A stretch of DNA of 64,000 nt from NCBI GenBank assembly GCA_024231695.1, contig JAAEQF010000587.1, forward strand, positions 28,744 to 92,743. The letters run 5' to 3'. A model generated the notes under the pieces. That model did no database searches, was not told the DNA's origin, and saw only the letters and a program-made list of their open reading frames with translations. Shown here piece after piece: positions 2,286 through 64,000 of this stretch (positions within the stretch are counted from its first letter, which is position 1; each line of letters begins with the position of its first letter). The position numbers were made by a program, and so were the translations under genes. This DNA is from FCB group bacterium (GTDB lineage Bacteria > Zixibacteria > MSB-5A5 > GN15 > JAAZOE01).

Positions 2286-5138
2286 GTGGCAGTAATAATA
2301 ACACCAATGGGGGTTTCGTGGCCGGCCGAATGGACCGACCCTTTTATTGACGAAATAACACTCACCATCAATTCAATCGACGCTATGAGGGAAGACGAAG
2401 ACCTCATGCTGATTGGCGGTGGAGATGTCACATTAGTAGGTGATTTATTCTCCTGGGCCGCCCCGATATATTTATATTCGACTAGAACCGGAAACTACGC
2501 AACAATTGCTATTGGTTCTGTGACGGTTCTAGACGGTCATTCAATTTATTTCACCCCGGTATCAAGGCCGATGCCGACGGCAGCAGTTTCATTATTATCA
2601 GCTGTATCCATACCGGCGGCAGCAATTAGAATAGGTGTTCGAAAAGGAGCAACTGTCGTTTTGCGTGATAGAGGTGCTGGCGAAATTTCGCCCACATTGG
2701 ATGACGCCTACAACAACGATGGCGGCGCAGCAACTATCGATGTGGACGCGGGCGATATCAATTGGGACGTCACCGGAGCATACTCATTTATCGTTGATTT
2801 GACGGCCGCGACTGGCGACGTTGACGGTTTTATTGTTCAAAACACTATGCCTCCTAACGGTCAGTCAACGTTATTTCAAGTTATTAAAAACTCGACAAAT
2901 GATGAAGTCGATTTGTGGGCACGGGTGGGAGACGCGACGGTTAGATCTAAAAACGACATGTTATTAGAAGCGGACGCCGATATGACGCTCGATGCTCGCG
3001 GCGTTTCAAAAACGCTTAATGATGCGTCGAACACAACTTTTACAGGTTTAATATCGGCAGAAACGTCGATTTTTGGGGCACTGAACACCCTGGCCGGTGG
3101 CGTTACGTCATTGACTCTCGACGACGCTTACAATAATGACGGCGGCGCAGCGACTATCGATGTTGACGCGGGCGATGTCAATTGGGACGTTACTGGGGCG
3201 TACTCATTTATAGTTGATCTAACGGCCGCAACTGGTGACGTTGACGGTTTTATTGTCCAAAACGTCGACCCTCCGAACGGCCAATCGACAATGTTTCGAG
3301 TTCTAAAAAATTCGACAAATGACGAAGTCGATCTATGGGCCAAGGTAGGAGACGCGACGGTCGAATCTCTAAATGATATGTCGCTAAAAGCGGCAGTTGA
3401 TATAACGCTCGACGCCCGTGGAGTTTCAAAAACGCTTAACGATGCGTCAAACACAACTTTTACGGGTTCGATCTCGGCTCAAACATCAATTTTTGGGGCA
3501 CTGAACACCCTGGCCGGTGGCGTTACGTCATTGACTCTCGACGACGCTTACAATAATGATGGCGGCGCAGCGACTATCGATGTTGACGCGGGCGATGTCA
3601 ATTGGGACGTTACTGGGGCGTACTCATTTATCATTGATTTGACGGCCGCGACTGGCGACGTTGACGGATTTATTGTTCAAAATACCGTTTCACCAAACGG
3701 CCAATCAACCATATTTCGAGTTCTGAAAAACTCAACAAATGATGAATTAGATCTGTGGGCAAAGGTGGGAGACGCGACGGTTGAATCTCTAAATGACATG
3801 TCGTTAAAAGCGGCCGTCGATATAACACTCGACGCTCGCGGTGTATCGAAAACGCTTAACGACGCGTCGAACACAACTTTTACAGGATCGATCTCGGCTC
3901 AAACATCGATTTTTGGAGCACTAAATACCTTGGCAGGCGGCGTTACGTCATTGACTCTCGACGACGCTTACAATAATGACGGCGGCGCAGCGACTATCGA
4001 TGTTGACGCGGGCGATGTTAATTGGGACGTCACTGGAGCGTATTCATTTATCATTGATTTGACGGCCGCAACTGGCGACGTTGACGGTTTTATTGTTCAA
4101 AATACCGTTTCGCCGAACGGCCAATCAACGCTATTTAAAGTTCTGAAAAATTCGACGAATGACGAGGTCGATCTGTGGGCCAAGGTAGGAGACGCGACGG
4201 TCGAATCTCTGAATGATATGTCGCTAAAAGCGGCAGTTGATATAACGCTCGACGCCCGTGGAGTTTCAAAGACGCTTAACGACGCGTCAAACACAACTTT
4301 TACGGGTTCGATCTCGGCTCAAACGTCAATATTTGGAGCACTAAACACCCTAGCCGGCGGCGCCGCTGGAGAAGTCAATACAGCGAGCAATGCTGGTTCT
4401 ACCGGAGTGGGGCCGTTCGATAATAAAAACGGTGTAGATTTAGAGTTTAGAAACACAAAATCTGCTAATAATATTTTAACGGTAACATTAGACGGCTCAA
4501 ATAAAGACGTACTGCACACTATCGTCGAGGGAAATATAGATCATGACGCGTTAGATAATTATGTTGCCAACAAACATATCGATTGGACCATTAGCCAAGA
4601 TCCACCTGTTATCCATACCGATAACTACGAGCATGGTGGTTATACATACGGTATCATAGCGACAGCCGCTGCAATGCAAGCGATATCGTCTCCATCAGAC
4701 GGCGAGTCGTGTTTTTGCACAGAGTTGGGGAGTCCATTTCATTGGCAGGGCAATACTTGGCAGACGGATAAAAGTATTGAGGTTGTCAATAATTCTGGAT
4801 ATACGGTTTCGGAGGGAGATGTTGTTGTACCTTCGACATCTACCGCAAATTCTGTGACTATGACCACGTCATCTAATTATAAATTTGTTGCCGGGACCGT
4901 TTTATTGGGCGGGACCAACGGCAGCTATATAACTGTTGCCATAGGTGGTTTTTGGTTAGTTTATGTTTTAAACGCTTGTAGTCCAGGTCATATGCTAGTC
5001 ACTTCGACCACGTTGGGAGCTGCGAATAGTGTAGGTGTGACCAATCAGGCGGGATCATTTGCCTGCTGTTTTGGATCAAAAAGTAGCTCGCCGGGATATG
5101 TTTTGGCGCTAGTTGGTATTCCTAGCGAATTGTTATAA
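2286..5138 (+). CDS. Large repetitive tail-fibre/adhesin-like structural protein
   Basis: 950 aa, GTG start; four ~140-aa internal repeats LDDAYNNDGGAATIDVDAGD(I/V)NWDVTGAYSF... Confidence 0.65.
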   Translation: MAVIITPMGVSWPAEWTDPFIDEITLTINSIDAMREDEDLMLIGGGDVTLVGDLFSWAAPIYLYSTRTGNYATIAIGSVTVLDGHSIYFTPVSRPMPTAAVSLLSAVSIPAAAIRIGVRKGATVVLRDRGAGEISPTLDDAYNNDGGAATIDVDAGDINWDVTGAYSFIVDLTAATGDVDGFIVQNTMPPNGQSTLFQVIKNSTNDEVDLWARVGDATVRSKNDMLLEADADMTLDARGVSKTLNDASNTTFTGLISAETSIFGALNTLAGGVTSLTLDDAYNNDGGAATIDVDAGDVNWDVTGAYSFIVDLTAATGDVDGFIVQNVDPPNGQSTMFRVLKNSTNDEVDLWAKVGDATVESLNDMSLKAAVDITLDARGVSKTLNDASNTTFTGSISAQTSIFGALNTLAGGVTSLTLDDAYNNDGGAATIDVDAGDVNWDVTGAYSFIIDLTAATGDVDGFIVQNTVSPNGQSTIFRVLKNSTNDELDLWAKVGDATVESLNDMSLKAAVDITLDARGVSKTLNDASNTTFTGSISAQTSIFGALNTLAGGVTSLTLDDAYNNDGGAATIDVDAGDVNWDVTGAYSFIIDLTAATGDVDGFIVQNTVSPNGQSTLFKVLKNSTNDEVDLWAKVGDATVESLNDMSLKAAVDITLDARGVSKTLNDASNTTFTGSISAQTSIFGALNTLAGGAAGEVNTASNAGSTGVGPFDNKNGVDLEFRNTKSANNILTVTLDGSNKDVLHTIVEGNIDHDALDNYVANKHIDWTISQDPPVIHTDNYEHGGYTYGIIATAAAMQAISSPSDGESCFCTELGSPFHWQGNTWQTDKSIEVVNNSGYTVSEGDVVVPSTSTANSVTMTTSSNYKFVAGTVLLGGTNGSYITVAIGGFWLVYVLNACSPGHMLVTSTTLGAANSVGVTNQAGSFACCFGSKSSSPGYVLALVGIPSELL
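2697..4376 (+). repeat. Four tandem ~420 bp repeats inside CDS 2286-5138
   Basis: LDDAYNN-start units at 2697, 3117, 3537, 3957; period exactly 420 bp. Confidence 0.9.
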
Positions 5139-12852: not shown

Positions 12853-12909
12853 CAATAATGACAATTATTGAACAATACATATTGACAGCAACGCCGGAAA
12901 TGCTAATAT
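12853..12909 (+). promoter_or_regulatory. Candidate promoter plus palindromic operators for the tandem-HTH gene
   Basis: CAATAAT-GACA-ATTATTG (12853-12870), CAATA-CA-TATTG (12873-12884), TTGACA 12882-12887, 16 bp, TAATAT 12904-12909. Confidence 0.55.
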
Positions 12910-12953: not shown

Positions 12954-13502
12954 ATGTCGGCCAAAAAGATGCTGAATATTCGCACGATCAATGTCAAAAC
13001 CAATTTCGATAAAGCTCTTAAAAAACTAAATTTTTCAAAATGTTCTGTCGCTAAGCGTGCGGGGATGCCTTCCGGAAGTCTTGGCAGCGTTTTGCTTCAC
13101 AACAATCCTACAATGCGCCAGCTTTACAAAATATCATGTGGTATTGGCGTGTCTATTAGATACCTCATGGAGGGTGGTGATGTAGAGGAAGAACTGAAAA
13201 AAAATTACATTTTCGAGGCGATGTGCGAGCCGCAATTAAAAAAAGGCTGGGAACCAAAAAAACCGAATGTGTCAGCCAGAGTCCAAATGATTCTTAGAGA
13301 AAAAGGAATAAGAAAACTCGAAGCGGCACATAGGATCAACGCGCTACCGTCATGGTGGTCGCCTATCTTAAAGATGAACAATCCCACCATCCTTGTACTA
13401 GAACGGATTGCATACGCGTTAGAGGTCAAGCCTTTTGAGTTGGTGGATCCAGTGTCTCCAGTTGATTATGCTGAGATCATCATGCCCCCAATTTCATTCT
13501 AG
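12954..13502 (+). CDS. Putative transcriptional regulator with two tandem HTH (XRE-like) domains
   Basis: RBS aaggag; two similar halves: '...KRAGMPSGSLGSVLLHNNPTMRQLYKISCGIGVSIRYLMEG' and '...HRINALPSWWSPILKMNNPTILVLERIAYALEVKPFELVD'. Confidence 0.6.
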   Translation: MSAKKMLNIRTINVKTNFDKALKKLNFSKCSVAKRAGMPSGSLGSVLLHNNPTMRQLYKISCGIGVSIRYLMEGGDVEEELKKNYIFEAMCEPQLKKGWEPKKPNVSARVQMILREKGIRKLEAAHRINALPSWWSPILKMNNPTILVLERIAYALEVKPFELVDPVSPVDYAEIIMPPISF

Positions 13503-18416: not shown

Positions 18417-18502
18417 CGTAGTGCTTAAAGTCACGATGGCAGTCGTGGCCCTTTTCGTTCAGCTTCACGCCAACTATCGATTCTTTTTCATGTACACATA
18501 AA

Positions 18503-18533
18503 AAAAGGCCGCTACTTGCAATAGCGACCTTTT
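18503..18533. terminator. Bidirectional rho-independent terminator candidate
   Basis: AAAAGGCCGCTA-cttgcaa-TAGCGACCTTTT, 11 of 12 bp paired, between convergent genes. Confidence 0.65.
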
Positions 18534-18623: not shown

Positions 18624-19001
18624 TTAGTATCCCATTTGTTTTTTCATAGATCTGCGGTGGGTCTCGTATTCTTGGTCAATTTTAGCGGACTCTTTTTCAG
18701 TTTTTAGTTTTTCTTGCCATTCCTCGGTAGATTCGATTTCCGCGATAGCGGCTTCGATTTTATCAAGGATTTCTTGTTTCATCGCCAGGCATCCAATTTT
18801 GGCGGCGAATACGGGATGGTTTAGTTTTTCGGGTTTGCCATAACCAATATGTGAGTTATCGACATATGCATCAATGTCGAAGTCACAACATTTTACTGTG
18901 ATTTGATCTCCATCTACGTTGATATTTTCTTTGGTGTTTAAAGTTAGTTTTACTTCGGCGTTTTGGTTGTTGCTAGTTTTCCATGTGATTATTTTTTTCA
19001 T
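18624..19001 (-). CDS. Hypothetical small protein
   Basis: ATG at 19001 (minus) in the same leader context (GGGGAACACAATG) as + strand genes near 50.9 kb. Confidence 0.6.
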   Translation of the reverse strand: MKKIITWKTSNNQNAEVKLTLNTKENINVDGDQITVKCCDFDIDAYVDNSHIGYGKPEKLNHPVFAAKIGCLAMKQEILDKIEAAIAEIESTEEWQEKLKTEKESAKIDQEYETHRRSMKKQMGY

Positions 19002-19082
19002 TGTGTTCCCCGTTTCGTTGTTTGTTTTGTGTGTTGCGTTGTTCATGAGTATCAACTTATAGCACATTGTGTATAGTGTCAA
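19002..19082 (-). promoter_or_regulatory. Promoter-operator-leader cassette (minus-strand copy)
   Basis: TTGACA (19082-19077), ACACAATGTGC (19072-19062), TAAGTT-like -10, leader ACTCATGAACAACGCAACACACAAAACAAACAACGAAACGGGGAACACAATG. Confidence 0.65.
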
Positions 19083-19130
19083 CCTTTTTTTGTAGTTCCT
19101 ACTTATTTTTTTGTGTTTTTTAGAAAAACC

Positions 19131-19298: not shown

Positions 19299-20177
19299 AT
19301 GACAGACATTGTAAAATTCAATTTCTATGGTGATGAGCTTGAATGTGTGAAGGACGACGAGGATCTTTGGGTCTCTGTCCGGCGGATGTGTGAACCACTT
19401 GGAATTGATCACGACAATCAACGCGTCAAGCTGAAAAAAAAATCTTGGGCACGCACGGTGCTAATCACCGCGCACGATGCAAACAACCGAAAACAATCAC
19501 AATTTTTTATTCATGTTGATAGTGTGCCAATGTGGTTGGCGACTATTGACGAAAAACGCGTATCAGAACATGTTCAGCTTAAACTAATCAAGTTTCAACT
19601 CGAGGCTGCCAAAGCCTTGCGGGATCATTTCTTCGATCACAAGATTTCAATTCCAGACAACCTCGAGGATGCTTTATTGCTGGCAGCGTCTCTTGAGGGC
19701 GAACGAAAGAAACTGAAGGCCCGCGTCGAAGCCGACCGGCCAAAGGTAGAGTTCGCCAAACGGATCGAGACATCGGAACAAACCTATTCATTGTCGGCGG
19801 CGTCCAAGGTGCTCAACAACGAAGGTATTGGATTCGGCCGTCAGCAGCTCTGCAACTTTCTTCGGTACATGGGGCACCTGTTCCGCAACTCAAGGAAAGA
19901 ACTTGAGCCGATGCAGGATTGTATTGACCGAGGATATTTCGAATATAAATTTGGCGAACGTTACGAATTCAAGAATAACGTTAAAACAGGTCGCAAGCTA
20001 CGATATGGGGCGACAACGGTGACCGGCAAGGGGTTAGTGTGGATAAAAAGCCTCATGGAACGTTACCCGGACTTGGTTGATTCTGTGTTGAATCAGAGCG
20101 CTATCATCCACAAATCAGCGCATAAAAATCGTGAATGCCGAAGGGCTAGTATCCATTCTGTGAGAAAAAAACGTTGA
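19299..20177 (+). CDS. Phage antirepressor protein (P22-AR-N-like N-terminus, KilA-C/ANT-like C-terminus)
   Basis: RBS aaggagg; WVSVRRMCEPLGIDHDNQRVKLKKKSWA; C-terminal 'SAASKVLNNEGIGFGRQQLCNFLRYMGHLF...GATTVTGKGLVWI'. Confidence 0.8.
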   Translation: MTDIVKFNFYGDELECVKDDEDLWVSVRRMCEPLGIDHDNQRVKLKKKSWARTVLITAHDANNRKQSQFFIHVDSVPMWLATIDEKRVSEHVQLKLIKFQLEAAKALRDHFFDHKISIPDNLEDALLLAASLEGERKKLKARVEADRPKVEFAKRIETSEQTYSLSAASKVLNNEGIGFGRQQLCNFLRYMGHLFRNSRKELEPMQDCIDRGYFEYKFGERYEFKNNVKTGRKLRYGATTVTGKGLVWIKSLMERYPDLVDSVLNQSAIIHKSAHKNRECRRASIHSVRKKR

Positions 20178-27200: not shown

Positions 27201-27203
27201 TAT

Positions 27204-27277
27204 GGGCCAATAGCTCCAACTGGTAGAGCGCCGGATTCCAGTCCCGGATGTTGGGGGTTCGAATCCCTCTTGGCCTG
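27204..27277 (+). tRNA. tRNA-Trp (anticodon CCA)
   Basis: Acceptor GGGCCAA/TTGGCCT, D-arm GCTC-CAACTGGTA-GAGC, anticodon loop TTCCAGT, T-arm GGGGG-TTCGAAT-CCCTC, discriminator G; no encoded CCA. Confidence 0.9.
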
Positions 27278-27300
27278 TCGCTCTTAAAAAGGAATCAATC

Positions 27301-28409: not shown

Positions 28410-29039
28410 ATGCTAATACTTCCAAAACGAATCACTGAAAACGGCGTCAGGATGCCATGCACAGACAGCATGATAAGGGCGATTGACAAAGGGATAAAGA
28501 CCGAGACTCGCCGGCCGGTGAAATATAACGCAGCTGGCAAATTGCAAAAATGCCGATACGGAAAACCTGGTGATTATTTGCTTATTACCGGTGCCCACAT
28601 TCTAGTCGATAGTGACGGCAACAACACCGAGCCAGACCGAAAAGGTGACAGGTCTCATGCGATTTATCGTGCGGACTACGAAGGCGACGCAAGTAGTATC
28701 GAATGGCGCCCCCCGATGTTTATGCCGAAATGGATACCGAACAGGGTTGTTCGCAACGTCGGCGTTTTTGTTGAGCATCTGCATGACATAACGGAAAGAC
28801 AGTCCATCGCGGAGGGGATACTTGACTTTTGGGGTTATAAAAACGAGGGACAGGAGTCTCCCATTATTATCGGGCATCATTGGGACAAGAACGCAACGAA
28901 AGAAAAGTTTTTTAGTAGTGCGCTATCCGCATACGAGGATCTGTGGAACAAAATCTACAAAGATAGAGGCCTCTTTTTCAACACGAATCCCGAAGTCTGG
29001 CGAATCAAATTTGAGACGGTTGATTTGAGTTCGTTATGA
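28410..29039 (+). CDS. ASCH-like phage protein
   Basis: 'MIRAIDKGIKTETRRPVK' motif and GDYLLITG as in phage ASCH/PUA-like proteins. Confidence 0.6.
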   Translation: MLILPKRITENGVRMPCTDSMIRAIDKGIKTETRRPVKYNAAGKLQKCRYGKPGDYLLITGAHILVDSDGNNTEPDRKGDRSHAIYRADYEGDASSIEWRPPMFMPKWIPNRVVRNVGVFVEHLHDITERQSIAEGILDFWGYKNEGQESPIIIGHHWDKNATKEKFFSSALSAYEDLWNKIYKDRGLFFNTNPEVWRIKFETVDLSSL

Positions 29040-43850: not shown

Positions 43851-43881
43851 CGAAAAAATAAACTAACAATGCAGAAAAGTG

Positions 43882-43910
43882 TTGACGCTACACACAAAGT
43901 GATTTAAGTT
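43882..43910 (+). promoter_or_regulatory. Promoter candidate, degenerate member of the ACACA-N-TGTGT group
   Basis: TTGACG, 17 bp containing ACACACAAAGTGA, TAAGTT. Confidence 0.45.
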
Positions 43911-43945
43911 TGTACAGCGAACGGGGAACAACGAAAGGATTAACC

Positions 43946-44728
43946 ATGAATGATATTTTGACGGAAAAACAAACGGGGGGCCCGTCGGATGGGAGTATAG
44001 AACAAGCTGAGAAAATCGTGTCGCAAATGGATCTCCGACGTTCACTAGAACGACGATTTGCGAGGTTTGAAGAGGTACCCAAAATTTGGGTTCCCCAGGA
44101 AAACAAAGGGGCGAAGTCGACCGGTGGTGTTTTTGGTCACCTGAAGGCCCAAGGCAAGCAAGCTCATACTGAGGCACCAGAAAAAAGATGCACATGGAAG
44201 TGGTTTGCAAAAGAAGTTCTCCCAGAAGCTATAGGTATTGACGTTGAACTTTGTCATTATTTTCGCAGTAATTTTTCGGCGTTGGTTACATCGGCACATG
44301 ACGACTCACCGTGTATTTTTCAATGGAAGAATAATTTTTCTCATTATCTTTATCACGGAGGGAGTACCCCCGACGATTGGAATTTGCATGAAAATACCGC
44401 CAAGGTTACCGGTATTTCACTGCCAGTGCACAAGTGGGAAGGTGCTATTTATAATGGTAACAACTCGGATTCAGTGCTGTTAATCCTTGAAGGATGTAGG
44501 GATTTACGTTCGAATAGTCTTGCGATTTTTCCGGGAACGTTGATCCCAGAACTTAGAACGGTTCGAAAGGTAATCGAATCGTATTCGAGGAGTAAAAAAA
44601 TAGAGGGGGATGAACAAGCGACGGCTTGCGGTCTCATGATTTCTCAATCTTCCCAAAATGCGGGGACCAAACTCATAGTGACGACAAAAACGGGTGTCGC
44701 AATATTCTCGATCGATTTGTGGGAATAG
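43946..44728 (+). CDS. Conserved phage protein of unknown function
   Basis: 272 aa; 'SHYLYHGGSTPDDWNL...LLILEGCRDLRSNSLAIFPGTLIPELRTVRKVIESYSRSKKIEG'. Confidence 0.55.
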   Translation: MNDILTEKQTGGPSDGSIEQAEKIVSQMDLRRSLERRFARFEEVPKIWVPQENKGAKSTGGVFGHLKAQGKQAHTEAPEKRCTWKWFAKEVLPEAIGIDVELCHYFRSNFSALVTSAHDDSPCIFQWKNNFSHYLYHGGSTPDDWNLHENTAKVTGISLPVHKWEGAIYNGNNSDSVLLILEGCRDLRSNSLAIFPGTLIPELRTVRKVIESYSRSKKIEGDEQATACGLMISQSSQNAGTKLIVTTKTGVAIFSIDLWE

Positions 44729-49268: not shown

Positions 49269-49315
49269 ACCACAACTCCGCTAGAAAAAAAATAATATAA
49301 AACTGCGTTGGATTC

Positions 49316-49390
49316 TTGACATTGTGCACAATGTGTTTTAATGTTCCCTTATGCACGGCGGGGAAGCCGACAAACAAGGAGGACACAGTG
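49316..49390 (+). promoter_or_regulatory. Promoter-operator cassette copy
   Basis: TTGACA 49316-49321, GCACAATGTGT 49326-49336, TAATGT 49339-49344. Confidence 0.6.
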
Positions 49391-49690
49391 CCAGCAGTAG
49401 AAATCGTCAAGGTTTATGCAGATACCGTTTATGTTTATAGGCTGACCAATATGGCCCATAGTTCGGCTAAATTTGGCAATTGCCAGGTATGTAACAAACA
49501 TGTCAGTGAAGTTCATTTACAAACCAAATATGGTCAGTGCAAGAAAGCCAACGGGAAATATTTCTGGGCAGATCAGGGCGCGTTATGGGGGCACAAAGAT
49601 TGCGTGATTGGAAAACGGGAAACGGGCAAGAAAATGAATCTCAAAAAGTTCACATTTGGCAATAATTCGTGGGAGGTCGAAGAACAATAG
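49388..49690 (+). CDS. Hypothetical protein
   Basis: caaggaggacacaGTG; CQVC. Confidence 0.6.
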   Translation: MPAVEIVKVYADTVYVYRLTNMAHSSAKFGNCQVCNKHVSEVHLQTKYGQCKKANGKYFWADQGALWGHKDCVIGKRETGKKMNLKKFTFGNNSWEVEEQ

Positions 49691-49701
49691 TTTTTATACC
49701 T

Positions 49702-49725
49702 GCCGTCGTTGTGACGGCGGTTTTT
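49702..49725 (+). terminator. Rho-independent terminator
   Basis: GCCGTC-gttgt-GACGGC-ggTTTTT. Confidence 0.75.
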
Positions 49726-49742
49726 GATTTAGGGGGGCAATT

Positions 49743-50015
49743 ATGCAAAAGACAAGGGTTGACGAATGCATGCGTTCTTATGCCGGCGGGGTAGTCACCG
49801 AAAAACAGTGGCTTAGCCTCGGGAGATTGGCAAGGTCGCCTCAGAAAACGATGATTATTGCTTCGTCGTTGAGTGAAAAATACACAATGACTGAGTCTGA
49901 CGCACTAGCGCTGATCAATGTCGGTGTTGCAAAATTTGCAAAGAATAGAAAGCTTGTTGTTACAACCGAATACGGCCTTGAGTTGGTTTCAGCTCACGGC
50001 ATAGAGGGGAGATAA
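49743..50015 (+). CDS. Hypothetical protein
   Basis: 90 aa, after terminator. Confidence 0.6.
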   Translation: MQKTRVDECMRSYAGGVVTEKQWLSLGRLARSPQKTMIIASSLSEKYTMTESDALALINVGVAKFAKNRKLVVTTEYGLELVSAHGIEGR

Positions 50016-50019
50016 GCAT

Positions 50020-50223
50020 ATGGATGAAAAATTAAAACAACAAATTATCGATGCGGTACAGTCGGAAAACGCGCAAGAACTGAACCTTATAATTGAGATG
50101 TTTAAGGATGCGGGGAATGATTACCCGTCAATTTTTAGTGTCTTCAAAATGGCGTGTCCGTGGATTGATACTGCGGACTATAAGCGGCTAATAGGAATAG
50201 CCGAGAAAGGTGTATCGCGATGA
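50020..50223 (+). CDS. Hypothetical protein
   Basis: 67 aa. Confidence 0.5.
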   Translation: MDEKLKQQIIDAVQSENAQELNLIIEMFKDAGNDYPSIFSVFKMACPWIDTADYKRLIGIAEKGVSR

Positions 50224-50498
50224 ATTGTGAAGAACAGCTCCGCTTGTGGGTGTCCGGTGAACCGATGCATAACGATGAAGGGGACGAGTGCACGCCAGAC
50301 CTAGCTTGTTGCCGAGGTAAAAAAGTGATGGCGCCAGAGTCAGAACGTCAGGCTTTTCTTGACGCCTATCTGGCCGGCGACCGTCCTACGTGTAAAACAT
50401 TGATTTCAAAGTTCCTCACGGCTATCTTATCCGTTGATTTTCCAGACCTTGATATCCAGGTTAACGGGTTCGAATGGGGTAAAGATGCTGACCAATAA
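50220..50498 (+). CDS. Hypothetical protein
   Basis: 92 aa, ATGA overlap. Confidence 0.55.
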   Translation: MNCEEQLRLWVSGEPMHNDEGDECTPDLACCRGKKVMAPESERQAFLDAYLAGDRPTCKTLISKFLTAILSVDFPDLDIQVNGFEWGKDADQ

Positions 50499-50838
50499 GA
50501 TGCTCGATGAATTACACCGTAGGATTAAGCAGTATTATTATATTTTTGGAACGGAAAACAATATTGACTGGAGGTATACCAAAGCTATCAGAGCAGCATT
50601 TAGTGCCCTACAGGGCTTTAAGCTTACATGCTTTTGGGGACAGTATGAACAAATAGATCTTATATTTAGAGCATTGCATATACAAATTGAAGGGTACACA
50701 AAGGAAGTTTTCGAATATCGTGCACTGTCCTTACAATACCAATCTTATAACGAAATAGTTTTAGATAATATAGTCCGTCGAGACGTACTTTTGGATTTGC
50801 ATGATGCGTTTATGGGCATAGAAAAAAACAAAAAGTAA
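50485..50838 (+). CDS. Hypothetical helical protein
   Basis: ATG 50485 overlapping previous. Confidence 0.5.
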   Translation: MLTNKMLDELHRRIKQYYYIFGTENNIDWRYTKAIRAAFSALQGFKLTCFWGQYEQIDLIFRALHIQIEGYTKEVFEYRALSLQYQSYNEIVLDNIVRRDVLLDLHDAFMGIEKNKK

Positions 50839-50866
50839 AAAAATAAGTTAAAACTGCAAAAAAAAC

Positions 50867-50943
50867 TTGACCCATACACATTGTGTGATAAGGTATTACT
50901 CATGACGACGCAACACACAAACAACGGAACGGGGAACACAATG
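50867..50943 (+). promoter_or_regulatory. Promoter-operator-leader cassette copy
   Basis: TTGACC, ACACATTGTGT 50876-50886, TAAGGT, leader ACTCATGACGACGCAACACACAAACAACGGAACGGGGAACACAATG. Confidence 0.7.
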
Positions 50944-51210
50944 ACAAACGCACAAATCAAAAAAACAATCAAAAAAGCTCTTGGTAATGACTGTAAAAAA
51001 ATTGGCGTAGCGATTTCCGCTACAACTAGAAGCCCGAAAATGAATTGGAGAAATATTTCTGTGCTAATCGAAACCGATGGACAACGCGAAAAAGCCTTTG
51101 AAATTGTCAACAGTGTCGTTAGTTCATGCGGTTTTAAAATGGTTAAATATTCTGAATATGAAGGTCTTTATGGCCAGACAAAAACGGCAATTGTTACTGT
51201 AAACCACTAA
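50941..51210 (+). CDS. Hypothetical protein
   Basis: ATG after GGGGAACACA. Confidence 0.6.
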   Translation: MTNAQIKKTIKKALGNDCKKIGVAISATTRSPKMNWRNISVLIETDGQREKAFEIVNSVVSSCGFKMVKYSEYEGLYGQTKTAIVTVNH

Positions 51211-51240
51211 ACGGCGGTTTGATCATAAGGAGTATAAAAA

Positions 51241-51516
51241 ATGTTTTTAAAACAAATCAAATGCGTAGAAACAGGAAGAAAAACAAGTATCTTCAAAAGC
51301 CAAGATGAGGATTTTATTGAGTTATCAGAAGACCTAGAAGACGCGATCAATAGGGTCATCAGAAGAACTTATCCCGGTGAGTATGGAGACTGGAGTTCGT
51401 GCAATTCTTGGGAGCCTGGGGATACCACAATCACTGTCACACGTGCCAGAAGCGTTGGCGGTATGCGCGAGATGAACCCAGCTGACACAATGAGCTTTGA
51501 AATAACCTACAAATAA
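51241..51516 (+). CDS. Hypothetical protein
   Basis: ataaggagtataaaaaATG. Confidence 0.6.
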   Translation: MFLKQIKCVETGRKTSIFKSQDEDFIELSEDLEDAINRVIRRTYPGEYGDWSSCNSWEPGDTTITVTRARSVGGMREMNPADTMSFEITYK

Positions 51517-51521
51517 AAGGA

Positions 51522-51737
51522 ATGACACAAATGGATGATCGATTTTTCTATGCATTACAGATCTACGCGTTAGGTGTAGTGACTGTATTTTTCGGAGCAT
51601 TTTTGGGTATAAAATTAAATACTTTTATAACGAATCTAACTGGTAAAAAAGACAAAACTGGTAAAAGAACAGTACATATTACAATAGGATCGATGCTTAT
51701 TTTTGCAGCGATCTTTGCAGCAGTCATGTTCTTCTAG
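51522..51737 (+). CDS. Small two-TM membrane protein
   Basis: YALQIYALGVVTVFFGAFLGI ... GSMLIFAAIFAAVMFF. Confidence 0.55.
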   Translation: MTQMDDRFFYALQIYALGVVTVFFGAFLGIKLNTFITNLTGKKDKTGKRTVHITIGSMLIFAAIFAAVMFF

Positions 51738-51812
51738 GGTGAGGGGCAATGAATAGAAAATAGCCAAAGGAAACACATCGCCGGGGGCCGGCGGTAGTAG
51801 AAAGGATTTATT

Positions 51813-52166
51813 ATGAAACCGAAATTTTATGAAGGTGATCCTAAACCTTATTGCAACGATGATCATTGTGATGAATTTGACGGCAAGCGGTGTGGCAAAC
51901 AGGGATGTAGACCAGGCTCACTTTGCGCACCGGCCATTCTTGAAAAAATTAAAAAGGAAACGAAATCAATACTCATCGTCTGTGCGAATGATAGCATGGA
52001 GGCGATTGTCATTGGCGACACTATCAAGGCTGACGGTGTAATGAAAAGACTGAGGGAAGAACATTCAGCGCTGTTTATCAAAGAACGTCGTTTCTCTAAC
52101 ATACAAGAATACGATAACGCGATTTTTTGGCACATTCACGATGATGTTCAAATTTTGGATGAATAA
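51813..52166 (+). CDS. Hypothetical protein
   Basis: 117 aa. Confidence 0.55.
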   Translation: MKPKFYEGDPKPYCNDDHCDEFDGKRCGKQGCRPGSLCAPAILEKIKKETKSILIVCANDSMEAIVIGDTIKADGVMKRLREEHSALFIKERRFSNIQEYDNAIFWHIHDDVQILDE

Positions 52167-52180
52167 GGAAGGAAGAAACA

Positions 52181-52552
52181 ATGATTGAATTTGTAGCGGC
52201 GGCCGCAATTGCGGTTGTAATTATTATTTGTGTTGTGTTTCGTCGGAAAAAGAAACAAGGATCGGAGTCAAAAAGCTCGGAGTTAAAAAGAATTGTGCTT
52301 GAATTCGCCGAAGAAGAACGCCAAAAGGCAGACAAAGAACTTGAACAGCGAAAAAAACGTATTGGGTTTAAGTTGAAAAGTTATAAAACCGATGTGGTGT
52401 GTTATCGATGTTATTTTTCAAAGCTATTTCAAGGGGGGTGCGTTTGTAGTCTTTATCCTCAGACCAGGTTTTCGATGGACGTCAATATAGGCAGCACTTG
52501 TGATTATTTTGCGCCCAAAGGCACCCCAAGAAGCGAATTGAAACAGCCGTAA
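52181..52552 (+). CDS. Membrane-anchored Cys-containing protein
   Basis: N-terminal TM FVAAAAIAVVIIICVVF; C-terminal CYRCYF...CVCSLYP. Confidence 0.55.
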   Translation: MIEFVAAAAIAVVIIICVVFRRKKKQGSESKSSELKRIVLEFAEEERQKADKELEQRKKRIGFKLKSYKTDVVCYRCYFSKLFQGGCVCSLYPQTRFSMDVNIGSTCDYFAPKGTPRSELKQP

Positions 52553-52607
52553 TCCTCTCCATCTTGATATTCTGAAAAAAATAAATAGGAAACGCAAAAA
52601 AAAGAAG

Positions 52608-52682
52608 TTGACACTCTACACAATGTGTAATACAACAATACTCATGAACGGCGCAACACAAACAAAAAAAGGAAACACAATG
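52608..52682 (+). promoter_or_regulatory. Promoter-operator-leader cassette copy
   Basis: TTGACA 52608-52613, ACACAATGTGT 52618-52628, TACAAC, leader ACTCATGAACGGCGCAACACAAACAAAAAAAGGAAACACAATG. Confidence 0.7.
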
Positions 52683-52916
52683 CAAATCACAACAGAAATA
52701 ATTGACGGCGTTATCTATTACGGGACAGTTCTTCGCGGCGTAACGTACACAATTTTTCAACAGGATGCTGAATGGTGTGTTTTAAGTCGCCGTAATGCAC
52801 TCATGAACCAAGGCACTTGCCGCTATTTCGAAACCTTGGCGGCCGTCGAAAAGAAAATCAAAGGACTATTTGGAATTAGTGCACTACTTCAACCAATGAC
52901 AGACGTGCAAGCGTAG
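52680..52916 (+). CDS. Hypothetical protein
   Basis: ATG 52680 after GGAAACACA. Confidence 0.6.
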   Translation: MQITTEIIDGVIYYGTVLRGVTYTIFQQDAEWCVLSRRNALMNQGTCRYFETLAAVEKKIKGLFGISALLQPMTDVQA

Positions 52917-52921
52917 GGGGG

Positions 52922-53296
52922 ATGATGTCTTTTAATAATGTACCCGATGATTGGAACCAATACTGGGAAGCGTGTCCGTCTTGTGGCAGTAGCTATCACG
53001 CCAGCGAGGGCGGTTGTAGTTGTGGCGGGCTTGAGGTTTTTTGTGATAATTGCGGTGATTCACTAGGCGCAGAGGACGATGACGAGTTTGAAACACGGGG
53101 AGACGAACGGTTTTGTAAGGATTGCGCCGATAAACACGATCACACGTGTGAATATTGCGCAGAGGTTAAGGACGTTGAATTAGTTCGGTGTGAGATTGAA
53201 AGCACCGATTATGAGCCGTTTATGGTTTGCCCCGCGTGCTCTGACAAAATTAGCAAAGAAGTAGCAAAGGGATTGCAAAATGATAGCAACAATTGA
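52922..53296 (+). CDS. Zinc-ribbon protein
   Basis: CPSCGSSYHASEGGCSCGG...CDNCGD...CKDC...CEYC. Confidence 0.6.
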   Translation: MMSFNNVPDDWNQYWEACPSCGSSYHASEGGCSCGGLEVFCDNCGDSLGAEDDDEFETRGDERFCKDCADKHDHTCEYCAEVKDVELVRCEIESTDYEPFMVCPACSDKISKEVAKGLQNDSNN

Positions 53297-53822
53297 TGAT
53301 GTAATGAGTTGGGAGCCTTGCGAAGAATATTCGAGAGAACGGATAGAAGAATTAGGTGACGGAAAAGGTGCTCTGACCGGGTTAGAAATTTCAGGACTCA
53401 AAAAGGTTTCTATTGAAGACCGGCTATGGCTTATTCTGCGAGAACATTTTTTCAAAAAATCTGATTTATTAATGATGAAAACAGCTTTTGCGGAATCGGT
53501 CGTGCATTTGAATCAAGATCCAAGAGTTGCGAATGCAATAAAATTTATCCGGTTGTATGCGTTCGGTGAAGTAGATAAAGCAGACTATCTTGCTGCTAGG
53601 GACGCTGCCGGGGCCGATGCTTGGGCCGATGCTTGGACCGCTGCTTGGACCGCTGCTTGGACCGCTGCTTGGGCCGCTGGGGACACTGGGGATGCTGGGG
53701 ATGCTGGGGACGCTGCCAAAAATGCTGTTTGGGAGAACCATTTAGAGATCGTTCGAATCTACCTAAAAGACCAACAAGGAGGAAATAATGATTATCCGAA
53801 GAGACTGGATCGAAGCTCTTAA
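53280..53822 (+). CDS. Conserved phage-type repeat protein (AAWxAAW C-terminal repeats)
   Basis: MSWEPCEEYSRERIEEL... DAWADAWTAAWTAAWTAAWAAG. Confidence 0.6.
   Translation: MIATIDDVMSWEPCEEYSRERIEELGDGKGALTGLEISGLKKVSIEDRLWLILREHFFKKSDLLMMKTAFAESVVHLNQDPRVANAIKFIRLYAFGEVDKADYLAARDAAGADAWADAWTAAWTAAWTAAWAAGDTGDAGDAGDAAKNAVWENHLEIVRIYLKDQQGGNNDYPKRLDRSS
53620..53712 (+). repeat. 12 bp and 9 bp tandem microrepeats
   Basis: (g)ccg(a/c)tgcttgg x5 then ctggggatg/c x4. Confidence 0.8.
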
Positions 53823-54144
53823 AGAATCCGAAGAAAAGTGGGAAACCATCCTGAATGACTCTTCTCGCGTATTCGAATTTAAAGAGGACTGTGCCTTATG
53901 CTCTTTAGATCAATATACCGAAGAAAATGCTTGCATCGAATGCCCTTTAGAAAAAGAGGATATAGGGTGCGATAAAGCTCCCTGGCGTCGTATAGCTACA
54001 AGCTTTAGAAAAAATCGCCTTATTGCCGCTCCTTATTTCCACAAGAAACATCTAGAAGACATTAAACAAATGCTCGCCAATATAAGAAGCGTCCGTGAAA
54101 AATATGAGAAAGAAGAGGAAGATTATGAAGAAAACGGAATTTAA
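53788..54144 (+). CDS. Hypothetical protein with Cys cluster
   Basis: CALCSLDQYTEENACIECPLEKEDIGC. Confidence 0.55.
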   Translation: MIIRRDWIEALKESEEKWETILNDSSRVFEFKEDCALCSLDQYTEENACIECPLEKEDIGCDKAPWRRIATSFRKNRLIAAPYFHKKHLEDIKQMLANIRSVREKYEKEEEDYEENGI

Positions 54145-54391
54145 AGGAGAACAAAAAATACAATCATCAGAGGTAGAAGACTTAGCAAAGAAGATTGCTA
54201 CAAGCACTGTTCATTCTTACGAAGAGGCTCTTAAGATGGCCGGGTTATTATTACAGAGAGGTATTTCAAGTAAGGATATAATGAAGATTTCTGAGTTATT
54301 GTCCAATGCAAATCTTTGTGGTTCAAACTTGAACTTGTTTGATATTTTGAATGTCAGTTCATGTTTCAGTAAAGTATCTAAGGAGAAATAA
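54125..54391 (+). CDS. Hypothetical helical protein
   Basis: ATG 54125. Confidence 0.5.
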   Translation: MKKTEFKGEQKIQSSEVEDLAKKIATSTVHSYEEALKMAGLLLQRGISSKDIMKISELLSNANLCGSNLNLFDILNVSSCFSKVSKEK

Positions 54392-54754
54392 ATGAGTAAA
54401 CCAAGCGATTTTGCAGAGATATTCCCTAGTTGTAGCGTATCTTTTGATGGTGTCTTCGAAGGGATAGTACGTGACTTAATGAAGTTATTGGCAGATACAG
54501 GTGATGAGTGGGTCCTTATAGATCGTAAATGGTTAGCTGCAGTAGAAGATACCGGAACAACATTACCGAATTTTATTAAGTGCATACAACACGACCTATT
54601 CCGATATGCTCAATGGTGTCAAGACGAAGAAAGCGCACGCAGTTTCAGCCATGACTGGGCAAATGTCCCTAAGACAGCGTTTGAAGATTTTACTGATGAA
54701 TTCGAAAAAAAATTAGTTTGGTCTTCTCGGTTGCCTAGCCATCTTTTGAAGTAA
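54392..54754 (+). CDS. Hypothetical protein
   Basis: aaggagaaataaATG. Confidence 0.55.
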   Translation: MSKPSDFAEIFPSCSVSFDGVFEGIVRDLMKLLADTGDEWVLIDRKWLAAVEDTGTTLPNFIKCIQHDLFRYAQWCQDEESARSFSHDWANVPKTAFEDFTDEFEKKLVWSSRLPSHLLK

Positions 54755-54790
54755 AGAAAAAAATAAAAAGAAAATTGAAAAGAAGGGGGA

Positions 54791-54866
54791 TTGACGCGGT
54801 GCACAATGTGCGCTAGTTTAATACTCATGACAACGCAACACACAAACAACAAAAGGGGATAGGATG
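54791..54866 (+). promoter_or_regulatory. Promoter-operator-leader cassette copy
   Basis: TTGACG, GCACAATGTGC 54801-54811 (perfect palindrome), TAGTTT, leader ACTCATGACAACGCAACACACAAACAACAAAAGGGGATAGGATG. Confidence 0.7.
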
Positions 54867-55070
54867 ACAGGACCACAACTTAATGAACTCAGAAAAACGC
54901 TTAGATTTTCACAGAAAGATTTTGCGGCTCAATTGAAATTATCGTTGAAGGGCTATTTATCAATAAAACGGTTGACTAAAAAACCGTTGCCCCTAATGCC
55001 CTGGCAAGTCGCACTTTTGCGCGCGCAGTGTATCACCATCGGTTGCCGACCTAAAGACTTTGGATTTTAA
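54864..55070 (+). CDS. Small XRE-like HTH protein
   Basis: LNELRKTLRFSQKDFAAQLKLSLKGYLSIKR. Confidence 0.6.
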   Translation: MTGPQLNELRKTLRFSQKDFAAQLKLSLKGYLSIKRLTKKPLPLMPWQVALLRAQCITIGCRPKDFGF

Positions 55071-55097: not shown

Positions 55098-55334
55098 ATG
55101 AAAAAATCACAGTTGCGCCCGATCAAGGGCGTTAAATTTGCGAATGGAGCTTTGAGCCGTAGTGATTTTAAAAAAATCCAAAAGGCGTTTGGCTTTACGA
55201 GTTTTGAAATGGCCGATGCACTGGCAATGAAACGACGAACTATTATTGCAATGCGGTCCGGAGAACGAAACATTGCCCCGTGGACGGTAAAGCTCATGCA
55301 GTATGTTGCGAAAGAAAGGGGATTCATTTTCTGA
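55098..55334 (+). CDS. Small XRE-like HTH protein
   Basis: FKKIQKAFGFTSFEMADALAMKRRTIIAMRSGERNIAPWTVKLM. Confidence 0.65.
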   Translation: MKKSQLRPIKGVKFANGALSRSDFKKIQKAFGFTSFEMADALAMKRRTIIAMRSGERNIAPWTVKLMQYVAKERGFIF

Positions 55335-61862: not shown

Positions 61863-64000
61863 ATGTGTGAGTTTTGTAGAGGCTACCACGCCAAGCCAGC
61901 AGAAGGATATTTTAGTCTGTCCCCCGGACAGCCAATTATCACAGATCCAATTGAAAGACTTTGGAAAGGCGACACGTTCAAAGATGACTTGACGCCTGCT
62001 AGCGGTTACGCCGTGATCGTTGACGGGAAAATGCGTCATCTTGGCAAAGTTCCGCTGGCACGGGCTAGGCAAATTGCGATGAAAAGCGGGGACACCGCAA
62101 CGATTGCAGCTGCCGTTGGTTTTAGTGATTTAGATGTGCTAGTTTGGCGAAACGTTGAGATAATCGACCGGACCAAGGGCGGCTTGTTTGTAGGTGACGA
62201 CGGGGAACTAATGCGCAAAATGTCTCCGTTCGAACAGATCGAAGACATGACAGACGTCTATGCCGACAAACTCAAAACGGAATATTCGAAATGGGCCAAG
62301 GGCCAAATGGATGAGTATTTTTCTCACCTCGACGTAAATTGGTACGACGTTGACGATGTCGAAGCCGTGTTTGCTTCCGCTGGCGACGAAGCAATCACAG
62401 ACAAAAAAGACGTTGACCGGCTTTCTAATGCGTGGGGTGCATCGGCTCTAATTTATACAACCATGGCGGCGTCACAGGCCCGAGAGTTCACAAAATCCGC
62501 GTTCCTTCCGAAAATCGGATCGTCTATATCCACCGGTGATCGCCAGGCGATGAAGTTTCTGTCTGACCAACCAGGTTTTTTCGTTCGCGATCACCTCGGA
62601 AGGGTTGACGCAGGCCTCACCAAAGCCGGGAAAGCGATTGTCAACCGTGGTATTCGTGACGGCATAGGGTACCAGGAAATTGGTAAGGAACTCCGCGAAC
62701 AGCTGCCAGGTATGTGGGGGAAGTACGGCGCCAACTATTCCAACGTTGTAGCCAACGCCGGAGTGCAACGTTCTAGGGCGTTCGCTGAGATCACATCGTA
62801 CGTTGAAGCTGGGATAGAATTCGCTGAACTTATCGCAGTGCTAGACCAAAGGACGACAGATACATGTTTTTTGGGTGAGACGATGGTGTCTACACCAACA
62901 GGTCAAAAACGCATAGATAGCATCAAAATAGGCGATTTGGTAGTAACAGCGAGCGGGCTTGAGCGAAAAGTCATTGGAACACAACGCAGATGGGCAAACA
63001 ACCTATGTGAAATCATTTTTTCAAACGGTCTTAAGTTATTTGTGACAGGAAATCATTCTATAGTCACGGAGGGTGGATGGAAAAAATCTGAAGAGTTAAA
63101 AGAAAATGATCGGGTCGCAGTTTTGCAGGCAACGACCCCTAAAAAAAAGGCACCATCTACGATTGCGGATACCGTTGGAATTTCTCAACAGGAACAAGGA
63201 AAAGAGGGAAGAAGACCTGCTGAATTTTATCTCAAAAAAACTACCGATTTTATTACAGTCAAAAGCACAATGCGTCTCGGTAGATATTATGAAGTTTTTA
63301 ATTTAGAGGTCGACGAGGATCATACTTATCTAGCCGAAAACATTCAGGTTTCTAACTGCCGTATGCTAGACGGCCAGATCATACGAGTTGATAGCATTGT
63401 TGATATTCTCAATCAAACGCTGGAAATCGAAAATCCAGAGGAAATAAGGGAAGTGTCACCGTGGATTTCGACTAAGAAAAATCCTTCTACCGGGGTGCCG
63501 CAGCTCGTAACAAGGAACGGAGTTGTTCTGGCAGATATTGTTCGAAGTGGATATGGGAAAATTGACGATCGGGGCCAGTTCGCAGCGCGATTAATGGGTG
63601 ACCAACTCGCCGTCGATGCGAGTATCGGACCTCCCCCGTATCACGCTTACTGCAGGACGACGATGAACCCAGTTGTAAAAACGTTTCAGGTCCCGCCGAA
63701 AACGTGGAGGGTCGCAATTCCGACCACACCACTGAACCCGAAAGAGGCAAACCCGATTACTACTCCAAGTTTTCTTCGTGGGCTCACCGCAGCTGCATAT
63801 GTCAATTCGATTGGTGCCGCTGACCGAGGGTACATGACCGGACGAAATCCAACCGTATCTCGCCACGTCTCCCTCGGCATGCCTGGGGATCCGGAGGCGG
63901 GCGTTTGGGGTGAGGATGGTTGGATTGATTCGATGGACGCGCGAGAACAAGTGGAACGTCGTGTTTCAAACTCGCTATCTCGGTTATCGAATGCGTTAAA
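61863..64000 (+). CDS. Phage head morphogenesis protein (Mu F / SPP1 gp7-like) with in-frame intein; 3' end outside window
   Basis: Hand translation open from ATG 61863 to window end; spliced extein gives LDQRTTDT-CRMLDGQI; later PPPYHAYCRTTMNP; absent from ORF track because no stop in window. Confidence 0.8.
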   Translation, partial: MCEFCRGYHAKPAEGYFSLSPGQPIITDPIERLWKGDTFKDDLTPASGYAVIVDGKMRHLGKVPLARARQIAMKSGDTATIAAAVGFSDLDVLVWRNVEIIDRTKGGLFVGDDGELMRKMSPFEQIEDMTDVYADKLKTEYSKWAKGQMDEYFSHLDVNWYDVDDVEAVFASAGDEAITDKKDVDRLSNAWGASALIYTTMAASQAREFTKSAFLPKIGSSISTGDRQAMKFLSDQPGFFVRDHLGRVDAGLTKAGKAIVNRGIRDGIGYQEIGKELREQLPGMWGKYGANYSNVVANAGVQRSRAFAEITSYVEAGIEFAELIAVLDQRTTDTCFLGETMVSTPTGQKRIDSIKIGDLVVTASGLERKVIGTQRRWANNLCEIIFSNGLKLFVTGNHSIVTEGGWKKSEELKENDRVAVLQATTPKKKAPSTIADTVGISQQEQGKEGRRPAEFYLKKTTDFITVKSTMRLGRYYEVFNLEVDEDHTYLAENIQVSNCRMLDGQIIRVDSIVDILNQTLEIENPEEIREVSPWISTKKNPSTGVPQLVTRNGVVLADIVRSGYGKIDDRGQFAARLMGDQLAVDASIGPPPYHAYCRTTMNPVVKTFQVPPKTWRVAIPTTPLNPKEANPITTPSFLRGLTAAAYVNSIGAADRGYMTGRNPTVSRHVSLGMPGDPEAGVWGEDGWIDSMDAREQVERRVSNSLSRLSNAL
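62865..63356 (+). mobile_element. Mini-intein (Hint domain), 164 aa, no homing endonuclease
   Basis: Starts CFLGETMVSTPTGQKRIDSIKIGDLV, block B-like VTGNHSIVT, block F VFNLEVDEDHTYLAENIQVSN, +1 Cys. Confidence 0.85.

Follow-up and report, generated by a model that had tools for sequence, protein, structure and literature searches.

Six promoter cassettes of a phage contig share an Aca1-type operator and are likely shut off together by a small helix-turn-helix protein

The 64,000-nucleotide stretch analysed here (the window) covers positions 28744–92743 of a 92,743-base contig that is part of a 5.14-Mb metagenomic bin. It carries six copies of a promoter cassette of about 95–125 bp that ends at a start codon, with an inverted repeat lying between the -35 and -10 boxes in all six. 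These are likely strong phage promoters with an operator for an Aca1-type helix-turn-helix (HTH) protein, probably the product of open reading frame (ORF) 55098, which would shut off an early gene set jointly. An earlier note on this DNA had proposed a coordinately repressed regulon, and judged from sequence this is also the best-supported reading: it draws on six cassettes of one design, on the recurrence of the operator together with HTH genes in other viruses, and on the rank of 55098 on a profile of those HTH proteins.

The contig is a circularly closed assembly of ~92,602 bp (92.6 kb), since an exact 141-bp repeat is common to both of its ends; window position 64000 is its right end. It codes for a terminase, a portal protein, a CI-like protein with two HTH motifs (12954), a P22-type antirepressor (19299) and replication and recombination genes, and is therefore a phage. 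We take the bin as its host, an assumption that comes from the binning. Through the terminase, one viral contig was found as a relative (75 percent identity), and the stretch examined of that contig is without the cassette. Neither genome_contigs nor 132 genomes of the phylum contain terminase relatives.

Each cassette, named here after a position inside it, reads in the order A-tract, TTGAC(A/C/G), operator-bearing spacer, -10 box and leader. The A-tract is present in six of six. The operator, RCACAWTGTGY, stands 2 bp ahead of the -10 box in every copy, in a spacer of 17 bp (16 bp in 50867), and the inverted repeat is imperfect in 43882. The six -10 boxes are TAAGTT, TAAGTT, TAATGT, TAAGGT, TACAAC and TAGTTT. 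The four plus-strand copies named in the earlier note (49316, 50867, 52608 and 54791) are all present, with TTGAC, spacer palindrome and -10 box as described there, but they are not the full set: 19082, on the minus strand, and 43882, on the plus strand with a degenerate operator, had been missed. The shared TTGAC, palindrome and -10 box had been seen correctly, while the A-tract of all six copies and the match to the Aca1 operator had been overlooked.

Cassette 49316 (49286–49390; operator GCACAATGTGT at 49326–49336; partial leader; GTG start at 49388) precedes the single gene of its unit, a 100-aa ORF (49388–49690, plus strand), which is followed on the same strand by an intrinsic-terminator-like hairpin, CTGCCGTC GTTGT GACGGCGG with TTTTT (49700–49720), the best-ranked in its list, yet the regional number of such matches is not above that in shuffles. 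Cassette 50867 (50837–50943; operator ACACATTGTGT at 50876–50886; full leader) heads a plus-strand operon of small ORFs of unassigned function (50941–52552). Behind cassette 52608 (52575–52682; operator ACACAATGTGT at 52618–52628; full leader) lies another plus-strand operon of small ORFs, mostly without assigned function (52680–54754); one of them, 53280–53822 (phrog_18326, unknown function), contains 12-bp tandem repeats at 53592–53739 that code for an Ala/Trp-rich stretch. Cassette 54791 (54757–54866; operator GCACAATGTGC at 54801–54811; full leader) heads 54864, 55098, a DNA methyltransferase gene and further genes. The degenerate cassette 43882 (43853–43948, plus strand) has the operator ACACAAAGTGA at 43892–43902 and a partial leader, CGAACGGGGAACA, and precedes ORF 43946–44728. 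Cassette 19082 (19001–19112, minus strand) is made up of the A-tract, TTGACA, the operator at 19062–19072, TAAGTT and a full leader, and would drive a 125-aa minus-strand ORF without a family match (18624–19001). A minus-strand intrinsic terminator, read from the sequence as GGTCGCTA..TAGCGGCC with a T-run, follows this gene (18500–18529), so that the unit has the form promoter–gene–terminator and is inverted relative to its surroundings. Divergent from the inverted cassette is the antirepressor gene (19299–20177), with P22_AR_N and KilAC domains.

This number of copies is far above chance. The window contains five CACAWTGTG sites where 0.68 are expected, a number that none of 100 shuffles attains. 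With the -35 box included (TTGAC-N(3-12)-CACAWTGTG), the 92.6-kb contig has five matches, while 200 Markov shuffles have 0.02 on average and 1 at most; the rest of the 5.14-Mb bin contains no such match, the reversed-pattern control gave zero, and the promoter-operator pattern was found in 0 of 132 other genomes of the phylum. The strict operator site alone occurs only twice in the 5.1-Mb bin outside the phage contig. A weight-matrix scan added the sixth copy, 43882, with a score of 24.8 (next site 15.6; maximum in eight shuffles 16.0). This copy is confirmed because an independent pattern, A6-9-TAA-N8-25-TTGAC, matches exactly the same six places in 92.6 kb (shuffles: mean 0.19, maximum 4). 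A generic promoter scan did not list the cassettes because their -10 boxes fall under its threshold. The full cassette pattern with leader had no match in viral contigs; seven matches there to the leader alone were rejected as chance.

Conservation is concentrated in the operator and the leader. The leader is full in four copies (19082, 50867, 52608 and 54791) and partial in 49316 and 43882; the full copies have the form ACTCATGA-(n)-CGCAACACA, with a Shine-Dalgarno-like GGGG or AGGA at the end. Identity across these four is 41 and 33 percent for the spacer bases outside the operator, 94 percent for the operator, 100 percent for ACTCATGA and 92 percent for the CGCAACACA block. Since the spacer has diverged and operator and leader have been kept, recent copying explains the pattern less well than selection on the latter two. 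In 19082, 50867 and 52608 the ATG of the leader shares the reading frame of the gene; in 54791 its frame runs into TAG, in 49316 it is not in the frame of the gene, and 43882 has no such ATG. The earlier note had thus rightly described a mostly conserved leader whose ATG is in frame in some copies and stops at TAG in 54791. Because insertions and deletions shift the frame between copies, what is conserved is the nucleotide sequence, and conservation of a peptide is unlikely.

In Pseudomonas phage JBD30, the DNA bound by Aca1 contains GGCACAATGTGCC (PMC9410881, reached by full-text search with the operator letters). The JBD30 genome (NC_020198) has this repeat in a 17-bp spacer between TTGCGA and TAATCT, and CATG follows where the transcript is expected to begin. 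The 54791 operator is identical over 11 bp to the core of the JBD30 repeat and occupies the same promoter position; against the complete Aca1 site, GGCACANTGTGCC, it is the core RCACAWTGTGY that matches. The acr-aca1 promoter of JBD30 (Aca1, PDB 7C0G/7FA3/7VJM) is like the cassettes in being of sigma70 type, in its spacer, in the core between -35 and -10, in the CATG and in the small HTH protein encoded in the same operon. It differs in being a single promoter, with outer GG..CC arms on its repeat and a second repeat upstream, whereas the window phage has six dispersed cassettes, a shorter palindrome, an HTH protein without BLAST-detectable homology and no known acr gene. CATG begins 5 nt after the -10 box in four Aca1-type Pseudomonas promoters (JBD30, VB_EV13, Ab31 and viral contig L216) and 6 nt after it in the four full copies of the window. 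Besides JBD30, two Aca1-type Pseudomonas phages have retained the CATG leader but not the JBD30 repeat.

We then scanned viral sequences with the pattern TTGACN{5,7}RCACAWTGTGYN{1,3}TA. At least 120 viral stretches match it; a control palindrome of equal composition, in a complete scan, matches 49 altogether. Among the matches listed, with near-duplicates removed, a 17-bp spacer leads for the operator (28 of 66 sites, control 4 of 37), and -10 boxes with five or six matches to TATAAT are found at 20 of 66 sites, control 2 of 37. A matching small HTH gene lies 0–1 kb downstream of 17 of the 66 operator sites and of 0 of the 37 control sites (profile E<1e-5), a comparison that leans in favour of the operator since the profile was trained on operator loci; elsewhere in these loci the profile matched once with the operator and never with the control. 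Many operators among these matches head mini-operons of one to four small ORFs ending in an HTH protein of 57–123 aa, and one operator-linked HTH protein, in L216, is a plain Aca1 homologue. The first profile had partly used 55098 to find its seeds. As an independent point, a search restarted from Aca1 and iterated once recovered all 14 operator-linked HTH proteins, the same ones.

In the number of sites the window phage stands apart. Twenty-one other operator-bearing viral records among the matches listed, and JBD30, have one strict site or two each, counts that are lower bounds since many of the records are fragments; paired sites are twins 30–31 bp apart or lie ~850 bp apart. The phage contig has five strict sites and one degenerate site in six separate promoters, and six cassettes under one repressor would be unusual. 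Viral mini-operons that combine the Aca1-type operator with one to four small ORFs of unassigned function and a gene for an Aca-like HTH protein were noted as candidate acr-aca-like loci in L116, L131, L132, L133, L138, L139, L145, L162, L173, L184, L189, L114, L216, L217, L224 and L228. A 150-kb viral contig (L170) has overlapping divergent promoter-operators that share one palindrome (4263–4296). In Pseudanabaena phage Pan3 (L109), the promoter TTGACA-N16-TATGTT has a palindrome, TAGGGGCTGCCCCTA, in its spacer (2103–2117) and heads a two-gene operon, inverted relative to its neighbours, that ends in a 67-aa HTH gene; this looks like another acr-aca-like unit.

The best candidate for the repressor of all six cassettes is the 78-aa HTH protein 55098 (55098–55334, plus strand), which is Aca1-like by the mechanism proposed for it. 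Its gene is the second behind the 54791 cassette, inside an operon headed by the putative operator of its own product. On the profile of the 14 operator-linked HTH proteins it comes out on top of 949 contig ORFs (E=1.5e-8, 30 bits), and members left out of profile training score 26–76 bits. In the alignment, an Arg near the start of the recognition helix is shared by all operator-linked HTH proteins, Aca1 and 55098, where it is Arg47; it is Lys in 54864 and Trp in Pan3_22. The earlier note had offered 54864, 55098 and 12954 as binders. With its rank and the recognition-helix Arg, 55098 is supported, whereas 54864 (7 bits) and 12954 (-1 bit) fit poorly. A search for ribbon-helix-helix or other regulators among 60 small ORFs gave weak matches of other kinds only.

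Several observations weigh against this assignment and against the regulon as a whole. BLAST gives no match between 55098 and Aca1, and the two are in different PHROG families (phrog_3865 for Aca1), so we call the protein Aca1-like and do not claim membership of the Aca1 family. On a narrow profile of proteins found from Aca1, 55098 is again first but weak (E=0.05), and a stricter subset of them used as a profile does not find it. Pan3_22, a similar HTH protein, scores 24 bits on the profile despite its different promoter palindrome TAGGGGCTGCCCCTA, and the profile thus indicates HTH class, not DNA specificity. AlphaFold models are of low confidence (predicted local distance difference test 66 for 54864 and 58 for 55098), and Foldseek returned nothing usable for 55098. 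The phage operator is without the outer GG..CC arms of the JBD30 site. Genes behind the cassettes match no known anti-CRISPR or defence-related family in the libraries searched, which did not include an Acr library, and Cas1 was undetected in the host bin (5.14 Mb). Protein relatives of 55098 and 54864 were not found in viral contigs; a protein search gave two weak phage matches for 55098 and none for 54864.

Other regulators could bind the same site. One reading has the 68-aa HTH-like protein 54864 (54864–55070, plus strand) as the binder, alone or as a heteromer with 55098, acting as a Cro-like autorepressor. It is the first gene of the 54791 operon, has weak HTH_19 and PHROG regulator matches and shares phrog_14076 with 55098, but it matches the operator-linked HTH profile poorly (E 0.19, just 7 bits), and its recognition helix has Lys where the others share Arg, which leaves this reading unlikely. 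The palindrome could also be the immunity operator of the CI-like regulator 12954 (12954–13502, plus strand), with many dispersed sites in a lysogen, as for P1 C1 or mycobacteriophage stoperators. The resemblance of 12954 to a phage repressor and the P22-type antirepressor adjoining the 19082 cassette speak for this, but the promoter of 12954 is preceded by another palindrome, of 18 bp, and 12954 scores -1 bit, without a match to operator-linked HTH proteins elsewhere, and no cassette stands at 12954. Stoperators are moreover asymmetric (PMC9283540, PMC1934351), while the cassette sites are palindromic. We therefore disfavour 12954 as the binder and regard this reading as quite improbable. The 18-bp palindrome, CAATAATGACAATTATTG (12853–12870), just upstream of the TTGACA promoter for 12954, is probably that regulator's own operator.

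Equally doubtful is that a host protein or some other phage regulator binds the site, or that the palindrome is a by-product of promoter copying without a repressor. If the cassettes descend from one ancestor, a shared site would be expected in any case, but the low identity of the spacer around a conserved operator and leader speaks against this reading, as do the mere two strict sites elsewhere in the bin and the lack of the promoter-operator in the 132 other genomes of the phylum. Least probable, to our mind very much so, is that the conserved leader is the main control, as a leaderless mini-ORF from ACTC-ATG or as an RNA site for a translational repressor or enhancer. The ATG does lie 7 nt after the -10 box, where transcription would start, in four copies, and leader and operator are conserved to about the same degree; against this, the reading frame changes between copies, TAG ends the mini-ORF of 54791, and most of the leader is missing from two copies. 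These points leave room for an additional role of the leader beside the operator. In MerR-type activated promoters the dyad lies in an over-long spacer of 19–20 bp; activation of this type was rejected, as the cassette spacer is 17 bp (16 in one copy).

We therefore return to repression by 55098, for which we infer binding, repression, early timing and an accessory or counter-defence role of the genes. The six cassettes would be copies of one strong sigma70-type phage promoter with an operator between -35 and -10. At infection, host RNA polymerase would fire all of them at once, yielding about twenty small accessory proteins. The 55098 product, made from the 54791 copy, would then bind RCACAWTGTGY as dimers and block polymerase at every copy. 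Because 55098 lies behind one of the cassettes, it would shut off itself and the whole set after the initial burst, as Aca1 does for the anti-CRISPR operon. Aca proteins act on acr operons by such autorepression (PMC9410906).

Aca families resemble the window phage in that an inverted repeat lies in the core promoter and, as we propose here, a small HTH protein represses its own promoter (Shehreen et al. 2022, PMC9410906). The known bacterial Aca proteins are described as acting on one operon each, the one in which they are encoded (PMC9410906), whereas the window phage has one candidate regulator for several operons. For the control of many genes through one such sequence, archaeal viruses offer the closest parallel: their anti-defence genes have conserved early promoters (Bhoobalan-Chitty et al. 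2024, PMC11065993). Those promoters are archaeal, and the window phage, a tailed phage, would have a bacterial counterpart of sigma70 type. Mycobacteriophage L5-type stoperators resemble the proposed regulon in serving one repressor at many sites dispersed in a phage genome, but they are asymmetric and also stop elongation (PMC9283540, PMC6550527), while the sites of the window phage are symmetric and inside promoters.

In lambdoid morons, an accessory gene sits between its own promoter and terminator. The 19082 unit has the same organization and is inverted relative to its surroundings; it differs from morons in sharing promoter sequence and operator with five other units.

Elsewhere in the phage, a tRNA-Trp (cca) gene at 27203–27279 was the sole match of a structured-RNA search. 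One of just two minus-strand genes called in the phage (11616–12767) has a lipoprotein-like start and a long Asp/Thr repeat. The bin also contains a second, distant terminase-like frame with an internal TGA (L021, contig C793 of G000), likely from another prophage.

The cassette proteins searched had no match to families of known function, and the shared promoter is a first handle on the role of these genes, most of which are without known-family matches. With no Cas1 detected in the bin either, we do not favour an anti-CRISPR function in this host; the genes may have other parts in host takeover or in countering defences. We tentatively suggest, as a possibility that the evidence does not yet favour, that one Aca1-like repressor runs a dispersed counter-defence regulon, in which six portable cassettes release about twenty small anti-defence proteins in one burst and are then shut off jointly. 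If so, the operator, which is spread across many viruses, could be used as bait for new anti-defence genes without a known Acr or Aca. Searching by operator first has given about 16 other viral mini-operons of small genes with an Aca-like HTH protein, which can be tested for anti-defence activity, and would extend the regulatory-sequence approach of archaeal viruses (PMC11065993) to bacterial phages. With the operator at six of its promoters, the phage suggests that Aca-like proteins are capable of controlling early genes across a whole genome.

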